Source: a virus. Taken from it: 20,965 bases of DNA. The translations under genes were made by a program, and so were the position numbers. Shown piece by piece: positions 6,428 to 20,919 of the stretch. Positions within the stretch are counted from its first letter, which is position 1. Every line of letters begins with the position of its first letter. The DNA is taken from positions 1 to 20,965 of IMG/VR virus record IMGVR_UViG_3300035661_000367; one strand, written 5' to 3'. Below the pieces are notes generated by a model. That model ran no database searches. It was not told the origin of the DNA and saw only the letters and a list, made by a program, of their open reading frames with translations.

Positions 6428-6435
6428 TATTTATA
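6428..6435 (-). promoter_or_regulatory. Late promoter (TATAAATA) of the baseplate operon
   Basis: An exact match on the minus strand to the T4 late consensus TATAAATA. The predicted start, about 6 bp downstream, leaves a short leader with GGGAG before the ATG at 6405. The -35 of the divergent gp55 promoter begins only 4 bp away, at 6439. Confidence 0.85.
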
Positions 6436-12865: not shown

Positions 12866-12873
12866 TATTTATA
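12866..12873 (-). promoter_or_regulatory. Late promoter (TATAAATA) of the NTase gene
   Basis: An exact late consensus on the minus strand. The predicted start is near 12860, followed by GGAG and ATG 12847. The divergent helicase promoter begins 7 bp away. Confidence 0.85.
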
Positions 12874-12932: not shown

Positions 12933-14525
12933 ATGTCGAGTGAAATTTTAAAATACTGGCCCATTGAAAGTCCGCCACGAGAAAATCAGATAAAGGCGTT
13001 GCAATGGTTAGAAAAACAAACCGCAAAATATGTTATCTGCCAGGCCCCGGTTGGAGTTGGTAAGTCATTAATAGGGATAACATTTTCTCGTTATGTTGAC
13101 AGGGGTAGAGGGGATTCTTTTGTATTAACACCGCAAATTGTATTACAACACCAATACGAACAATCATTTGATAGTAATGTTGTGTCATCATTGTACGGAA
13201 AGGGAAATTATAAGTGCGAAAAACGTAATACTACATGTGACGTTGGTAGTTTAGTCAAACCAAAATGTGATAGCTGTCCGGCTGTTGCTGCCCGAAATAG
13301 AGCTAAAAACTCACCAAACGTAGTGATGAATTATAAGCTAGCTATGCTCAATTTCGTATTCACTCAAACATTCAGAAAGCGCAAATTATTAATTATGGAT
13401 GAGTGTCATAATACAGAAAACGAGTTGACTGAGTTTGATGCTGTTCAAATTTTTGCAAAGAAGTGTGAACGTGAAAATATTCCTTGGAAGTCCCATGCAG
13501 ATATAATTAGTGCTATAGATTGGGTTAAATCAAAATACCTACCTGTAATGGATAAGAAATTACAGGAGTTGATGAATGAATGTGAGGACCTTATTGATAA
13601 GGGTACCAACTATGATAGGCATGTGCTACCTACCGAAATAACCAAATTACGCGAAATGAAAGCATTGATAAGTCATATAGATGGGTTGAATGATATAATT
13701 GAGGAAGGTGATGCCGAAATAATAAAAAATTGGTGTTTGGTATCTGATAAACAAACCATACGGTTTAAACGACTGTTTGGTGCTCATAGTTTTAAATATA
13801 TCATAGAGCCAATGGCAGAGCGGTTTTTGTTCATGTCTGCAACCATAGTAAACCCAGATAGTTTTTGTAGAGATTTGGGTATAAATCCAAATGATGCGGC
13901 CTTTTATTCACTAGATTCGGATTTTCCAGCAGAAAACCGTCCTGTAATATACATGCCACAAATGAAAATGAATGTAAATTGGAACAGCGACGAAAATTAC
14001 ACCAATCGTAAAGATATGATTAACTCTATTAAAAAGTTGATGGGAGTACATAAAGACCAATCTGGTATTATACACACAGGTAATTTCGCAATAGCAAAAT
14101 GGTTAATAGAAGAATTAGAAGATAAAATTCCACATGAAATTTATCACCACAATCCAGATAGTGGTGATAACAGGAACCAAATCATTCAAGTCTTTCAATC
14201 AACAAAAAAACCTGCAGTATTGATATCGCCTAGTATAACAGAAGGATTGGATTTAATAGATGATTTGGCACGATTTGCTATTATAGTTAAAACCCCTTAT
14301 AAAAATATTGGGGATCAATGGGTTAAAGCACGCATGGAATTATCATCTGAGTGGTACCAAAGACAGGCTATAATTGATGTTATCCAAGGTTGTGGGCGAA
14401 TTGTGCGATCAAAAGATGATTGGGGTAATGTTTACATATTGGATCAATCCTGGGGATATCTATATGAAAAGACAAAGGGTATGATACCTCAGTGGTGGAA
14501 GGATGCATATCACGTTATTAATTAA
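12933..14525 (+). CDS. DinG/XPD-like superfamily 2 helicase with Fe-S cysteines
   Basis: A 530-residue SF2 helicase. Walker A QAPVGVGKS is at 37-45, a DECH box at 156-159, motif III-like FMSATI near 298-303, a SPSITEGLDL motif near 430, and motif VI QGCGRIVRS followed by DWGNVYILDQSW near the C-terminus. Between motifs I and II four cysteines (C95, C102, C112, C115) are spaced like the 4Fe-4S ligands of XPD, DinG and Rad3. Such enzymes unwind DNA 5' to 3' and can remove R-loops or D-loops. T4's own helicases (gp41, Dda, UvsW) lack this cluster. GAGG precedes the ATG. The gene is early-type and ends in a strong bidirectional terminator. At 530 residues it is shorter than E. coli DinG (716), consistent with a compact phage form. 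The exact substrate is unknown. Confidence 0.9.
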   Translation: MSSEILKYWPIESPPRENQIKALQWLEKQTAKYVICQAPVGVGKSLIGITFSRYVDRGRGDSFVLTPQIVLQHQYEQSFDSNVVSSLYGKGNYKCEKRNTTCDVGSLVKPKCDSCPAVAARNRAKNSPNVVMNYKLAMLNFVFTQTFRKRKLLIMDECHNTENELTEFDAVQIFAKKCERENIPWKSHADIISAIDWVKSKYLPVMDKKLQELMNECEDLIDKGTNYDRHVLPTEITKLREMKALISHIDGLNDIIEEGDAEIIKNWCLVSDKQTIRFKRLFGAHSFKYIIEPMAERFLFMSATIVNPDSFCRDLGINPNDAAFYSLDSDFPAENRPVIYMPQMKMNVNWNSDENYTNRKDMINSIKKLMGVHKDQSGIIHTGNFAIAKWLIEELEDKIPHEIYHHNPDSGDNRNQIIQVFQSTKKPAVLISPSITEGLDLIDDLARFAIIVKTPYKNIGDQWVKARMELSSEWYQRQAIIDVIQGCGRIVRSKDDWGNVYILDQSWGYLYEKTKGMIPQWWKDAYHVIN

Positions 14526-14554
14526 AAATGGCCCAGGGACTGGGCCATTTTTAA
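14522..14554. terminator. Bidirectional terminator between convergent genes
   Basis: A 15-bp perfect stem (14522-14536 with 14540-14554, loop GGA) with a GC-rich core and A5/T5 flanks gives a U-run in both directions. The helicase stop codon and the stop codon of the frameshift extension of the gp26-like gene both lie within it. Confidence 0.92.
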
Positions 14555-14781
14555 TATACTGGATGAGGATTTTTTGATTCTATTTTGAACCGTTCATCTA
14601 AAAAATCTGATATTAATTGTCGCTCTGCATACGACATGTTCATCACTTCAGTGTACGACATAGATCCTCGCATAAAATAAGTTAATGATATAACAGATTT
14701 TAGTACAGCTTCTGCTTCGACATTCAGCTGTTTAAACAGTGATCGTATGGCTACGTTGTCCCCACTACGGAGGACTGAGTA
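14551..14781 (-). CDS. -1 frame extension of the gp26-like protein (gp51-like?), reached by frameshift
   Basis: In the -1 frame relative to the gp26-like gene, 76 codons run from 14781 to a TAA at 14551. The product reads YSVLRSGDNVAIRSLFKQLN, then an EAEAVLKSVISLTYFMRGSM helix, SYAERQLISDFLDERFKIES and a PHPVY end. It looks like a real helical domain, and the YFMRG...ER..I..F...R...E.K...PVY pattern recalls small baseplate-hub assembly proteins of T4 relatives. There is no ATG, GTG or TTG in this frame before the methionine in YFMRG, so independent initiation would lose the first half. The slippery heptamer at 14781-14787 would join it to residues 1-266 of the upstream frame. Expected fusion: 342 residues. 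An A/T-run sequencing error would produce the same picture and must be excluded. Confidence 0.6.
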   Translation of the reverse strand, partial: YSVLRSGDNVAIRSLFKQLNVEAEAVLKSVISLTYFMRGSMSYTEVMNMSYAERQLISDFLDERFKIESKNPHPVY

Positions 14782-15578
14782 AAAAAAGTTAGAGGATTAA
14801 GTGATACGCTTATCACAATCTCTTCCCCGCAATCTTTACATACGTCTTTAAATTCTGTTGTTGGACCCCAATCACTACTTTTATCTACACTACTGGCAAT
14901 TTTAGAAAACCAAGTAGTTGGGATTGTTTTAGCCCAATCCATAATAAGGTCTTTATCCTCGATACCATCAACAGATGATATTATACTAACTACAGCTGCA
15001 AACATATCATTTTGGATCTGTTCGACAGTTGCACTATCAACTTTCATACTACTCGCCTGCATCATCTTCATGATGTCTTTAAACCGGACTGGATGCATTT
15101 TGACTACCTGACCACTATCTACTGTGACTGAATACATGCTATTGATGGTAGTTGGATCTATCTGTTTAGCTTCATTTATAAACTTGGATAGTGTTGTTGT
15201 ATATGTATGTGATTTGGATGTTTCGGAACAGTCGTGATTAAAATTAACGTCAACAACATCACCATATGTAACCTTTCTAAGACATAACATCAAATAATCT
15301 ACATCTTTAGCAAAGATGTCACTAGCATTAATAATTTGAGGCATGCACTTCATCAGTACATCGGTAATACCAGTTCCATTAATGAGATTGTTTGGACTTT
15401 TCATAATGATCTCATCTAGTGCTGTCATGGGGTTTACTTGTATTTCACCATTCACAACTGTGTCGTCTACCTCTCCGTGGGTATAAAAGATGCCGCCCGA
15501 AGGCAATCTAAATGTTTCTCCTGGAATAACAATACGTTCCAGTAAAGGATTTTTTCTATTAACAGTTATCTCATCCAT
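14751..15578 (-). CDS. 26: Baseplate hub assembly protein, gp26-like (zero-frame product)
   Basis: A 275-residue zero-frame product. TFRLPSGGIFYTHGEVDD near the N-terminus, IQVNPMTALDEIIMKSPNNL, IFAKDVDYLMLCLRKVTYGD and a CKDCGEEI pair near residue 245 match the T4 gp26-type baseplate hub family seen in T4 relatives. In T4, gp26 helps build the central hub. I chose ATG 15578 because GGGAG lies 5 nt upstream; two earlier in-frame ATGs (15596, 15590) have no ribosome site. TATAAATA lies at 15611-15618. The frame ends NPLTFF then nine unrelated-looking residues (TQSSVVGTT), whereas the -1 frame continues with a plausible domain. The tape-measure gene diverges from the same intergenic region. Confidence 0.7.
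   Translation of the reverse strand: MDEITVNRKNPLLERIVIPGETFRLPSGGIFYTHGEVDDTVVNGEIQVNPMTALDEIIMKSPNNLINGTGITDVLMKCMPQIINASDIFAKDVDYLMLCLRKVTYGDVVDVNFNHDCSETSKSHTYTTTLSKFINEAKQIDPTTINSMYSVTVDSGQVVKMHPVRFKDIMKMMQASSMKVDSATVEQIQNDMFAAVVSIISSVDGIEDKDLIMDWAKTIPTTWFSKIASSVDKSSDWGPTTEFKDVCKDCGEEIVISVSLNPLTFFTQSSVVGTT
14758..14787 (-). promoter_or_regulatory. Candidate -1 programmed frameshift signal
   Basis: On the minus strand U UUU UUU (14787-14781) is in the correct phase of the gp26-like frame (ACT TTT TTT). A 5-nt spacer (ACTCA) follows, then a 6-bp stem GTCCTC/GGGGAC with a 6-nt loop (14775-14758), GC-rich in an AT-rich genome. The zero-frame stop lies 4 nt after the stem. Confidence 0.6.
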
Positions 15579-15610
15579 TTGATCTCCCATTTGCATAATA
15601 ATCGATGAGA

Positions 15611-15618
15611 TATTTATA
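15611..15618 (-). promoter_or_regulatory. Late promoter (TATAAATA) of the gp26-like gene
   Basis: An exact late consensus on the minus strand, with the start codon 33 bp downstream and GGGAG between. No equally good element faces the tape-measure gene; GGTAAATA near 15667 is the nearest weak candidate. Confidence 0.85.
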
Positions 15619-15710
15619 TAATTTTAAACTGTGGTTTACTACTACATCATAAGTTACTAAATAAGGTAAATAACATATGTATGTATGACTTTTTATAATA
15701 GGATATGACG

Positions 15711-18476
15711 ATGGCAGATTTAACTCAGCAAATGCTCCATTCAATGATGGATAGCTTAATTAAGAACGGTGGTAGGTTAAGTAAATCGTACGCAGATACC
15801 GCAGCAGTTGTGGATGCAAAAAATGCTACAGAAAAAGCAGATCGTGTACTTACTGAAAAAATTATAAGCACCAATAAAACACATGATCAAAAATTAAATA
15901 CACTCAACAATACATTATCAGCTGCCAATAAACAAACTTCATTATTGGCAGCATCATTACGTCTAGCTGATTCCAGTCTGGACGAATTAGTATCATCTAG
16001 TAATACAACAGCAGAATACTTATCTAAGGAATTCCCCGATAAGGTTGCTGCTGGTTTGAATGCATTTACGTCAAAAACAGGCGCTGTCATTAAAGATTTT
16101 AAAGACGTTTTACAACTTCAGGAGTTGGGGGCTGCTACAAAGAATATGGCAGATACACTAGCTCAAGGTACAAGAGGGCAAAGTGCAAATGTTCTTGCGT
16201 ATCTGAAAGATATTCAGAAGTCGGGATCATCGTTTGCAAAAATGGCCGGTATGTCTGATGCTGCTGCTGCTAAATTAGATGCTCTGCAGAAAGTAGTAGA
16301 TTCGGATACCGCAACAACTAGACAGAAACACGAATTATCAAAATTAGTTGCAGCTAGTATGCCTGGTATGGTTAAGTCGACAACTGAAGTACAGAAGGCA
16401 ATGGATGCGTTAGTAAAGACTGAGTTAAAAGCTGCCAATGAGATGGGTGACTATTGGGATGGTGTGGCAAGTCAGGGTAAGTTGGGAAAAATATTTGCTG
16501 AACATGCTAGACCTGGTGGAAGTGGTAGTATGTCAGCGGCATTTGGGGATTTGGCTAAAGCTGCTAGGGTTGCTGGCGTTGAGTTGATGGTAAATCTTGG
16601 AAAAAAAGCTATAACCGAAGTGATGGATATGGCTAGAGAGGGGATGCAAAAAGGCGTTGAACCTTTTCCTGTCATAGCTAAAGGGTTGTATTTATCTGGT
16701 AAGCAATATCAGGAAGTAATGTCTGCAAATATACAGGCTGTACATGCATCAGCTGGTGGTTATAGAGAGTTTAATAAACTCATGACAGATCATAATAATG
16801 ATTTTTTAAAAACTGCTGGAATGGATCCTGTACTAGCAGCTAAAAATGAAGCTAGTTCAATTACGATGATCAAATCTTTCAATAAAGTTGGTAAGACAGC
16901 AAGTGCTGTATCAACAGAGATGACAGATTTATCTAAAGACGGAACCCGATACAGAGATGTCGTAGGCGGCACGATGGAACAATTCGTCGCATTGAACCAA
17001 CGAATTGTGGATAGCACTGCGGTACAGGATTCAATGATATCAGCTACTGATGATGAACGTAAAGCTATACGTAAGAGCATTGTAGGACGGGTAGAAGAAT
17101 ATCAAAATATGGGGTTGGCGGCTGATAAAGCGGAGGAGTTAGCTAAATGGATGCAGGCTTCTAGCGGGATGAAGAGTCCCGCTGAAATAGTGAAAGAAGC
17201 ATCTATGGTACAGTTGACTGCTTCGCGTTTGGGTATGGACGCGGATAAAGCTGCTAGACTTAAAGATTATCAGGAGAAAAGAGAGGCTGGTATAACATTA
17301 ACTGAGAATGAAAGTAAAGATCAGGATAAGTTGTTGCAAGAGATGGCCAAAAAATATGATGAACGGCTGGGTCAAGCAAATAAAGCGGGTATAGCTCAGG
17401 CGTTTGGTATACGACAAGAGTTGATAAGCACTCTTGGACAAACCGGTACAGATTTTCAGAAGCATTTTGGTGAAGTTGTTGAAGGTACGCGAAACGATCC
17501 GGGTATGGGCAATAAAGGCAAAGCTAATGGACCAGGCGATAGTGCTGTTATGACCATAGGTGGGGCTGCATTAGAAGTAGTAGCTGCAATCGACACATTA
17601 AAAAATAATGTTATTGGGTCCTGGAGGTTTTGGGGAGCTGCTATTGTAGCAGCAATAGTGCTTTCTAATAGCAAGAGCATGAAAAATATAGTGGATAATA
17701 GTAAGATGTTATGGGATAAAACCAAAGGTGGAGCGGGAAAGGCTCTAGAAGCTGCAAAACAAGGAGCACCAAAACTAGCTGAAAAGGCTGGAGCGGTAAA
17801 GGATGGAGCACTTCAATTATGGGATAAAACAAAAGGTGGAGCAGGAAAGGCTATGGAAACTGCAAAATCAGCAGGACCAAAGGCTGTAGAGTTGGCAAAG
17901 AGTGCTAAGACTTTAGAGGTAGCTGGAAATTTGTTAAAAGTGGCAAAAGTTGCATCATTAGCAGGGATAGGTCTTGTAGTTGCTCAACATGTTGCTGGCG
18001 ACAAATCTAAGGTAGGTAAAGTATTAAATTCTAATACCGTTAACGATGCTTCTATGGGTGCAGGTATCGGTGCAGTCGCTGGGTCTATTGTTCCCGTTGT
18101 TGGTACCGCCATTGGTGCAGGAGTTGGTGGGGCAATTGGAGGTTTGTATGGTGCATATAAAGATTTTACAGCTCCAGCAGATCCAGCAGCTAATCCAAAA
18201 AATCCAGGTGCACCTGCAGCTACACCAACAGAGCAGGCAGCAATTGAGAAAAAACGGATTGCAGATGAAGCTAAAGCAAAGGCTTCTCACGCTGCAGCCA
18301 ATTCACCTACTAGTTCAGTAGATCCACAGCAATTAATCTTGGTGCAACTACAACAGGTTGGACAAAAATTATCTGAAATGATTAAATTAGCGAACGAGAG
18401 TAATGAGTTATATACCATGACGGAAGAAGAGAAGAAGAAAGCTCGTAAACGGCCTATTGCCAATATGGCTGCATAG
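15711..18476 (+). CDS. Tail tape-measure protein (role of T4 gp29)
   Basis: A 921-residue, largely alpha-helical, Ala/Lys-rich protein. A heptad-like N-terminal half (residues 1-300) is followed by a helical middle. One hydrophobic segment, WRFWGAAIVAAIVL, lies near 637-650. Two near-copies of LWDKTKGGAGKA (starting at residues 667 and 703) lie in an amphipathic stretch. A glycine-zipper region, GAGIGAVAGSIVPVVGTAIG and on to GGLYGAY, spans about 783-816, followed by an Ala/Pro/Lys-rich tail. This profile is typical of tape measures, which set tail length and help form the DNA channel in the host membrane. T4 gp29 has 590 residues; at the rule of about 1.5 angstrom per residue, the tail here would be about 138 nm, longer than T4's. 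ATG 15711 is preferred over 15705 because AGGA is 7 nt from it. Assignment is from composition, length and neighbours. Confidence 0.8.
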   Translation: MADLTQQMLHSMMDSLIKNGGRLSKSYADTAAVVDAKNATEKADRVLTEKIISTNKTHDQKLNTLNNTLSAANKQTSLLAASLRLADSSLDELVSSSNTTAEYLSKEFPDKVAAGLNAFTSKTGAVIKDFKDVLQLQELGAATKNMADTLAQGTRGQSANVLAYLKDIQKSGSSFAKMAGMSDAAAAKLDALQKVVDSDTATTRQKHELSKLVAASMPGMVKSTTEVQKAMDALVKTELKAANEMGDYWDGVASQGKLGKIFAEHARPGGSGSMSAAFGDLAKAARVAGVELMVNLGKKAITEVMDMAREGMQKGVEPFPVIAKGLYLSGKQYQEVMSANIQAVHASAGGYREFNKLMTDHNNDFLKTAGMDPVLAAKNEASSITMIKSFNKVGKTASAVSTEMTDLSKDGTRYRDVVGGTMEQFVALNQRIVDSTAVQDSMISATDDERKAIRKSIVGRVEEYQNMGLAADKAEELAKWMQASSGMKSPAEIVKEASMVQLTASRLGMDADKAARLKDYQEKREAGITLTENESKDQDKLLQEMAKKYDERLGQANKAGIAQAFGIRQELISTLGQTGTDFQKHFGEVVEGTRNDPGMGNKGKANGPGDSAVMTIGGAALEVVAAIDTLKNNVIGSWRFWGAAIVAAIVLSNSKSMKNIVDNSKMLWDKTKGGAGKALEAAKQGAPKLAEKAGAVKDGALQLWDKTKGGAGKAMETAKSAGPKAVELAKSAKTLEVAGNLLKVAKVASLAGIGLVVAQHVAGDKSKVGKVLNSNTVNDASMGAGIGAVAGSIVPVVGTAIGAGVGGAIGGLYGAYKDFTAPADPAANPKNPGAPAATPTEQAAIEKKRIADEAKAKASHAAANSPTSSVDPQQLILVQLQQVGQKLSEMIKLANESNELYTMTEEEKKKARKRPIANMAA
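17709..17880 (+). repeat. Imperfect direct repeat inside the tape-measure gene
   Basis: Two copies of about 60 bp begin at 17709 and 17817, each starting TTATGGGATAAAAC and encoding LWDKTKGGAGKA(L/M)E(A/T)AK. The offset is 108 bp (36 residues), which suggests a tandem duplication of a helical module. Confidence 0.7.
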
Positions 18477-20613: not shown

Positions 20614-20919
20614 ATGAAAGAACAATTACGTAGTATGCTTAATGCAATTATTAACGGCAATGCGGAACAAGCACAAGTGGATTTTCACGAGTATGTCACT
20701 CTGAAAACGCGTGCTATCATCAATGAAGACGAAGATGAAGATGAAGATGAAGATGAAGATAAGAAAAAATCCAAGAAAATCATGAAACGCGAAGATGAAG
20801 ATGAAGATGAATTGGAAGATGAAGATGATGAAGATGAAGATGAAGATGAAGATGAAGATGAAGATGAAGATGAAGATGATAAGAAAAAATCCAAGAAATA
20901 CGATGATGAAGACAAATAA
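20614..20919 (+). CDS. 67: Prohead core protein gp67-like, extremely acidic
   Basis: A 101-residue protein. Residues 1-37 form a helix, MKEQLRSMLNAIINGNAEQA then QVDFHEYVTLKTRAII, matching the small N-terminal domain of prohead core proteins of the gp67 type. The rest is a run of Glu-Asp repeats broken by two copies of KKKSKK, one internal and one near the C-terminus. In T4, gp67 (about 80 residues, acidic) is a scaffold component that is cut into small peptides by gp21 and partly stays in the head. AAGGAG lies before the ATG. Position directly after gene 20 supports the call. The charge pattern could mimic or neutralise DNA inside the prohead. Confidence 0.8.
   Translation: MKEQLRSMLNAIINGNAEQAQVDFHEYVTLKTRAIINEDEDEDEDEDEDKKKSKKIMKREDEDEDELEDEDDEDEDEDEDEDEDEDEDDKKKSKKYDDEDK
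20728..20880 (+). repeat. Hexanucleotide (GAAGAT)n tracts in gene 67
   Basis: Two runs of GAAGAT-type hexamers (about 20728-20760 and 20791-20880) encode alternating Glu-Asp and are separated by a KKKSKK-encoding block that recurs at about 20881. Such tracts readily change length by slippage. Confidence 0.85.

Follow-up and report, generated by a model that had tools for sequence, protein, structure and literature searches.

Probable programmed -1 ribosomal frameshifting in a gp26-like tail assembly chaperone gene of a divergent jumbo-phage-like virus

We analysed a stretch of 20,965 nucleotides, positions 1 to 20,965 of the IMG/VR virus record IMGVR_UViG_3300035661_000367 (hereafter the window). 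The features at the locus are listed in Table 1. The gene of interest lies on the minus strand. Its zero-frame ORF was read from ATG 15578, which is the start preceded by GGGAG; an in-frame ATG further upstream (15596) would lengthen the product to 281 aa. The zero-frame 3' end reads CTA ACT TTT TTT ACT CAG TCC TCC GTA GTG GGG ACA ACG TAG. The -1 frame is open over 14796-14551 and extends 65 codons past the zero-frame stop, and the predicted products are of 275 aa (short form) and 266 + 76 = 342 aa (long form). The earliest ATG, GTG or TTG of the -1 frame in the window is found 38 codons after the slip site. The initial annotation had described forms of 275 and 342 residues, an in-phase U UUU UUU heptamer with a zero-frame stop soon after it, and a -1 frame lacking a usable start before its core. 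We obtained the same two lengths from ATG 15578 and the -1 stop, the heptamer and the TAG that follows it are both present, and the first candidate start is the one 38 codons in.

Table 1. Features of the gp26-like gene and its surroundings (positions in the window).
Feature	Position	Strand	Remarks
Zero-frame ORF, short form (TAC-N), 275 aa	14751..15578	-	Start ATG 15578, stop TAG 14753-14751
Shine-Dalgarno-like GGGAG	15584..15588	-	5 nt before ATG 15578
-1 frame tail (TAC-C)	14551..14787	-	78 codons from slip site plus TAA 14553-14551; would give the 342-aa long form
Slippery heptamer U_UUU_UUU	14781..14787	-	P- and A-site codons UUU UUU; in phase, zero frame ACT TTT TTT ACT; site shared in 121 non-redundant genes
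Hairpin GTCCTC/GGGGAC, 6 bp, 6-nt loop CGTAGT	14758..14775	-	Possible stimulator; MFE structure
TATAAATA, T4-type late promoter consensus	15611..15618	-	About 33 nt upstream of ATG 15578; putative late promoter
Strong stem-loop between A/T runs	14521..14555	-	Bidirectional terminator-like; -22.2 kcal/mol, z -5.9
Divergent neighbour, 923 aa, without cysteine	15705..18476	+	Probable tape measure protein, judged from relatives

The -1 stop codon sits at the foot of the terminator-like stem. Thus, the tail occupies exactly the interval from the zero-frame stop to the point where transcription probably ends. The sequence TATAAATA occurs four times in the window, where 4.0 copies are expected by chance. 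Three copies lie just upstream of minus-strand genes, at 6428-6435, at 12866-12873 and upstream of the present gene, all on the minus strand; this placement of three out of four is suggestive, though the count itself is at chance level. On the other side of the promoter-like sequence, the divergent neighbour is probably the tape measure protein. A similarly large cysteine-free neighbour recurs in jumbo relatives, and the one at the same place in locus L036 matches the tape measure family phrog_794 (E 6e-8). A tblastn search of the 923-aa neighbour against phage records gave no match, and its role as a tape measure therefore rests on distant relatives. On the plus strand, a 101-aa ORF at 20614-20919 consists mostly of Asp/Glu repeats (DEDEDE...) and is of low complexity.

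The zero-frame ORF matches PF12322 (E 2.8e-10, 40.7 bits against a curated cut-off of 24.5) and phrog_150, 'baseplate hub' (E 4.6e-17). The AlphaFold2 model of the zero-frame protein has a mean pLDDT of 89, with the lowest values past the slip site. The zero-frame residues beyond FF are poorly conserved and modelled with low confidence, which is expected because they form only a short run to the stop. The best PDB matches of the model were HK97 gp13 (Z 6.2), YqbN (6.0), RBSTP2171 (5.8) and 5ir0 (5.6), and the next match had a Z of 2.8. HK97 gp13, YqbN and RBSTP2171 are known tail assembly chaperones (TACs; PMC9603447). The matches of the predicted model cover residues 10-120 and 148-243, that is, both halves of the protein, which suggests that it is composed of two TAC-like domains. 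All of these Z values are below 8, therefore a common arrangement could explain the matches, and we regard the predicted TAC fold as moderate support for the function and not as proof. A Foldseek search of the PDB with the model returned nothing significant.

The gene order of relatives bears on the same question. In immuto, the sheath and tail tube genes are followed by the PF12322 gene, a small ORF and the annotated tape measure gene, which is the classical place of a TAC. The PF12322 gene directly follows the tail tube gene in Mel-JY01 and SP-15, and its position in BRock is similar. A short and a long form with a common N-terminal part, as in a TAC pair, can be read from the window sequence. 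The product had been described earlier as a baseplate hub assembly protein. Its gp26-like character holds, as given by PF12322, and the function is better named from predicted fold and gene order: a putative TAC pair, rather than a baseplate hub part, is the best reading of the product.

The heptamer has the X_XXY_YYZ form of a programmed -1 frameshift site when read in the zero frame, with which the -1 ORF overlaps at this point before running well past the zero-frame stop. Taken alone, the T run is unremarkable, for the AT-rich window holds 10 T7 runs against 13.4 expected. Counting against the frameshift, U_UUU_UUU is less shifty in E. coli than A_AAA_AAG (PMC5009743).

We investigated the -1 tail as a protein. 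The tails of XacN1 and RAS14 are 36-37% identical to that of the window, which makes them as similar as the bodies of these proteins (30-36%). The nearest metagenomic tail is 42% identical. A search of the window's own tail against Pfam and PHROGs gave no match, and a profile comparison with the T4 gp51 C-terminus was weak (33 columns, E 3e-4 for a single comparison, probability 38%). AlphaFold2 gave a confident helical model of the tail (pLDDT 87), in agreement with the folded domain that had been thought plausible in the -1 frame.

Here, the conservation of the slip site was explored among relatives. Viral-contig relatives were recovered with alignments as the query. The window protein is 36% identical to XacN1 and 36-43% identical to its closest metagenomic relatives. 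In a set of 121 non-redundant genes (window included), for which having the heptamer was the condition of entry, 113 carry TTTTTTC and 8 carry TTTTTTT at the identical place, followed by a homologous -1 tail; of the loci fetched, L038 and the distant L053-L058 depart from this slip site. These genes fall in 26 clusters at <=50% identity, window included. In all 121, the codon preceding the heptamer ends in T and the first of the two Phe codons reads TTT, against 63% and 72%, respectively, over the remainder of these genes. The product of the gene-specific codon frequencies, with one gene taken per cluster (26), was about 10^-15.7. The site is thus conserved across divergent homologues with constraint on its silent positions, and by these codon statistics the position, phase and conservation of the heptamer over distant relatives are far beyond chance. 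Each of twelve jumbo phage records (36 to 21% identical) shows T_TTT_TTC or T_TTT_TTT at these two Phe codons, which lie close to the end of the PF12322 ORF, and has a -1 ORF of 72 to 86 codons. The slip-site layout is likewise present in KVP40, P-SSM2, S-PM2, HTVC008M, Cr30 and RaK2, and nearly all of the metagenomic relatives fetched share it. In L038, the T run is broken and a canonical slip heptamer, C_CCU_UUA, is found 12 nt upstream (L038 3775-3801). It directly follows the stop that closes the -1 frame of this locus, so that it makes up the first -1 codons. The slip site of L038 has apparently been relocated from the T run to C_CCU_UUA.

The RNA downstream of the heptamer shows no comparable conservation. 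A spacer and a 6-bp hairpin had been pointed out in the initial annotation, and both are present: the spacer is ACTCA (14780-14776, 5 nt), the arms lie at 14775-14770 and 14763-14758, and the hairpin is the minimum-energy fold. However, the hairpin is unexceptional (z -0.9 to -1.4) and is unconserved in close relatives. Averaged over the clusters, RNA folding strength is maximal directly after the heptamer (z -1.52, against about -0.3). A consensus RNA structure was not found in an ungapped alignment of the cyanophage group, and we therefore do not regard a conserved stimulator as general to these genes. The conserved element is the heptamer and not the hairpin.

The same heptamer and -1 tail in 26 clusters agree with the initial proposal that a -1 frameshift yields gp26-like forms of 275 and 342 residues, and we consider it very probable that the window gene makes its two TAC forms in this way. 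Other explanations have to be weighed. Homopolymers are error-prone and the window is an IMG/VR virus record, so the T7 run could be a miscounted T8, which would turn the locus into one simple fused ORF. An alignment of homologues had been proposed at the outset to tell a fused gene from a frameshifted one, and it placed the relatives on the frameshifted side, at a slippery run and at the same residue. Because these relatives were sequenced independently, and the isolates XacN1, RAS14, PA5oct, RaK2, CBB, Atu_ph07, P-SSM2 and KVP40 all keep the two-frame layout there, the artefact is refuted as far as this is possible without reads. Moreover, most relatives carry the mixed heptamer TTTTTTC, and the constraint on the third base and on the Phe codon would be unexplained if the gene were fused. 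Of the alternatives considered, we hold the miscount to be the least probable.

It is also hardly probable that the tail is a separate protein, made from its own start or by termination-reinitiation. Many records annotate it in this way: most relatives are given a small separate ORF, and the zero-frame stop is close to that ORF or overlaps it. However, homology of the tail begins at the FF of the slip site, preceding any start codon; the first candidate of the window comes well inside the tail, and the tail of PA5oct has no ATG, GTG or TTG at all. A separate gene would also leave the conservation of the heptamer without a reason, and in T4 gp51 and in the long gene of the contig with locus L055 the tail shares one reading frame with a complete PF12322 domain. 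Transcriptional slippage at the T7 run would be expected to yield the identical product, and a homopolymer run is indeed there. This is the least improbable of the alternatives, though still a very unlikely one. Six T followed by C is short for transcriptional slippage, and this is the run that most relatives have. In L038, the site is a canonical tandem-slip heptamer with no homopolymer.

Under ribosomal frameshifting, the majority of ribosomes would stay in one frame and make the 275-aa chaperone (TAC-N). At U_UUU_UUU, right before the stop, a minority would shift by -1, the two Phe-tRNAs each pairing again with UUU. The slipped ribosomes would add the 76-aa helical tail (TAC-C) and give the 342-aa form. 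If the pair acts as lambda gpG/gpGT does, the part shared by both forms would be expected to cover the tape measure protein, and the rare tail to bring in tail-tube subunits. We infer these binding roles, together with a useful shift rate and a low ratio of long to short form.

The relation to T4 was also investigated. T4 gp26 (208 aa) and gp51 (249 aa) both score on PF12322; gp26 stops at the equivalent of the slip site, whereas gp51 continues with an extra tail. Judged by these matches, the two proteins are paralogues. As both are PF12322 proteins and gp51 alone is tailed, T4 makes the short and the long form from two genes, whereas its relatives would make them from one. The T4 gp51 tail is about 32% identical to the cyanophage -1 tails. 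In addition, phrog_634, 'baseplate hub assembly catalyst', matches the C-terminal part of T4 gp51 (1e-23) and also the cyanophage -1 tails (1e-31). In the literature, gp26 and gp51 of T4 are counted among the hub assembly chaperones, and gp51 is required for T4 assembly and absent from the particle (PMC3004832). The annotated 'gp51' of P-SSM2 (L162 818-991) is a short ORF within the -1 frame. It is only part of the tail of gp26, and therefore the annotation of cyanophage 'gp51' as a separate gene is probably wrong. This would account for the tiny cyanophage 'gp51' compared with full-length T4 gp51, the cyanophage one being the frameshift tail only. The suggestion that the longer form of the window might cover gp51 fits with these relations, with T4 gp51 being a paralogue of gp26 plus a tail and cyanophage 'gp51' being a -1 tail.

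Vladimirov, Gautam and Davidson reportedly described in 2022 the TAC genes of T4-like phages, genes 26 and 51, with frameshifting in several T4-like groups. With frameshifted TAC genes known there, the kind is a known one, and the window holds a new, divergent, jumbo-phage-like member of it. The likeness to the T4-like TACs lies in the logic of a short and a long form and in the PF12322 genes. In contrast to the two-gene arrangement of T4, the window would make both forms from one gene by a -1 shift, and it belongs to a very divergent jumbo-type branch. A passage of PMC10885494 that cites Vladimirov, Gautam and Davidson (2022, Virology 566:9-15) states that, in some T4-like phages, the short form has a gene of its own and the long form is encoded by a second, fused gene, in place of frameshifting.

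In lambda, a -1 shift near the 3' end of the chaperone gene gives gpG and the C-terminally extended gpGT (PMC5009743). The window resembles lambda in its predicted short and extended forms by a -1 shift and, through the match to HK97 gp13, in a TAC-like fold. However, the lambda slip site is G_GGA_AAG and that of the window U_UUU_UUU. In the window protein, moreover, the TAC-fold matches fall on both halves and cysteine pairs are present, and its gene points away from the probable tape measure gene instead of lying just upstream of it. The 'gp26' and 'gp51' of P-SSM2, S-PM2 and HTVC008M are similar to the window gene in that a PF12322 ORF ends in FF at T_TTT_TTC or T_TTT_TTT and is followed by a -1 tail. 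They differ in a tail of about 60 aa, in a zero-frame stop <=1 codon after the slip site and, in some, in a strong downstream stem-loop.

These results extend the rule of the frameshifted tail chaperone to a divergent jumbo-type phage branch. The joined gene is annotated in none of the twelve jumbo records (0/12). They give the tail as an unrelated hypothetical ORF, and the long form is thus missing from their gene lists.

Other arrangements were observed among PF12322 genes. A +1 (or -2) tail occurs in Mel-JY01, immuto, SP-15, BRock, GXN1, an unannotated 484-kb phage and L053/L054 (L053 2330-2534; L054 3740-3973; L163, L164, L166, L167 and L168 around the PF12322 stop), and several of these members carry TTT TTT TGG CC. 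On balance, we lean slightly towards the view that PF12322 chaperones have repeatedly switched the route to the long form: a -1 shift at U_UUU_UUY in jumbo phages, cyanophages and pelagiphages, with the window as a -1 member; C_CCU_UUA in L038; the +1/-2 frame in Mel-JY01, immuto, SP-15 and L053/L054; and two genes in T4 and also in the L055 contig, where this seems to have arisen independently. In that contig (L055/L157, contig G001 103680-105049), two PF12322 genes overlap in tandem, the short one followed by a long one with an in-frame tail.
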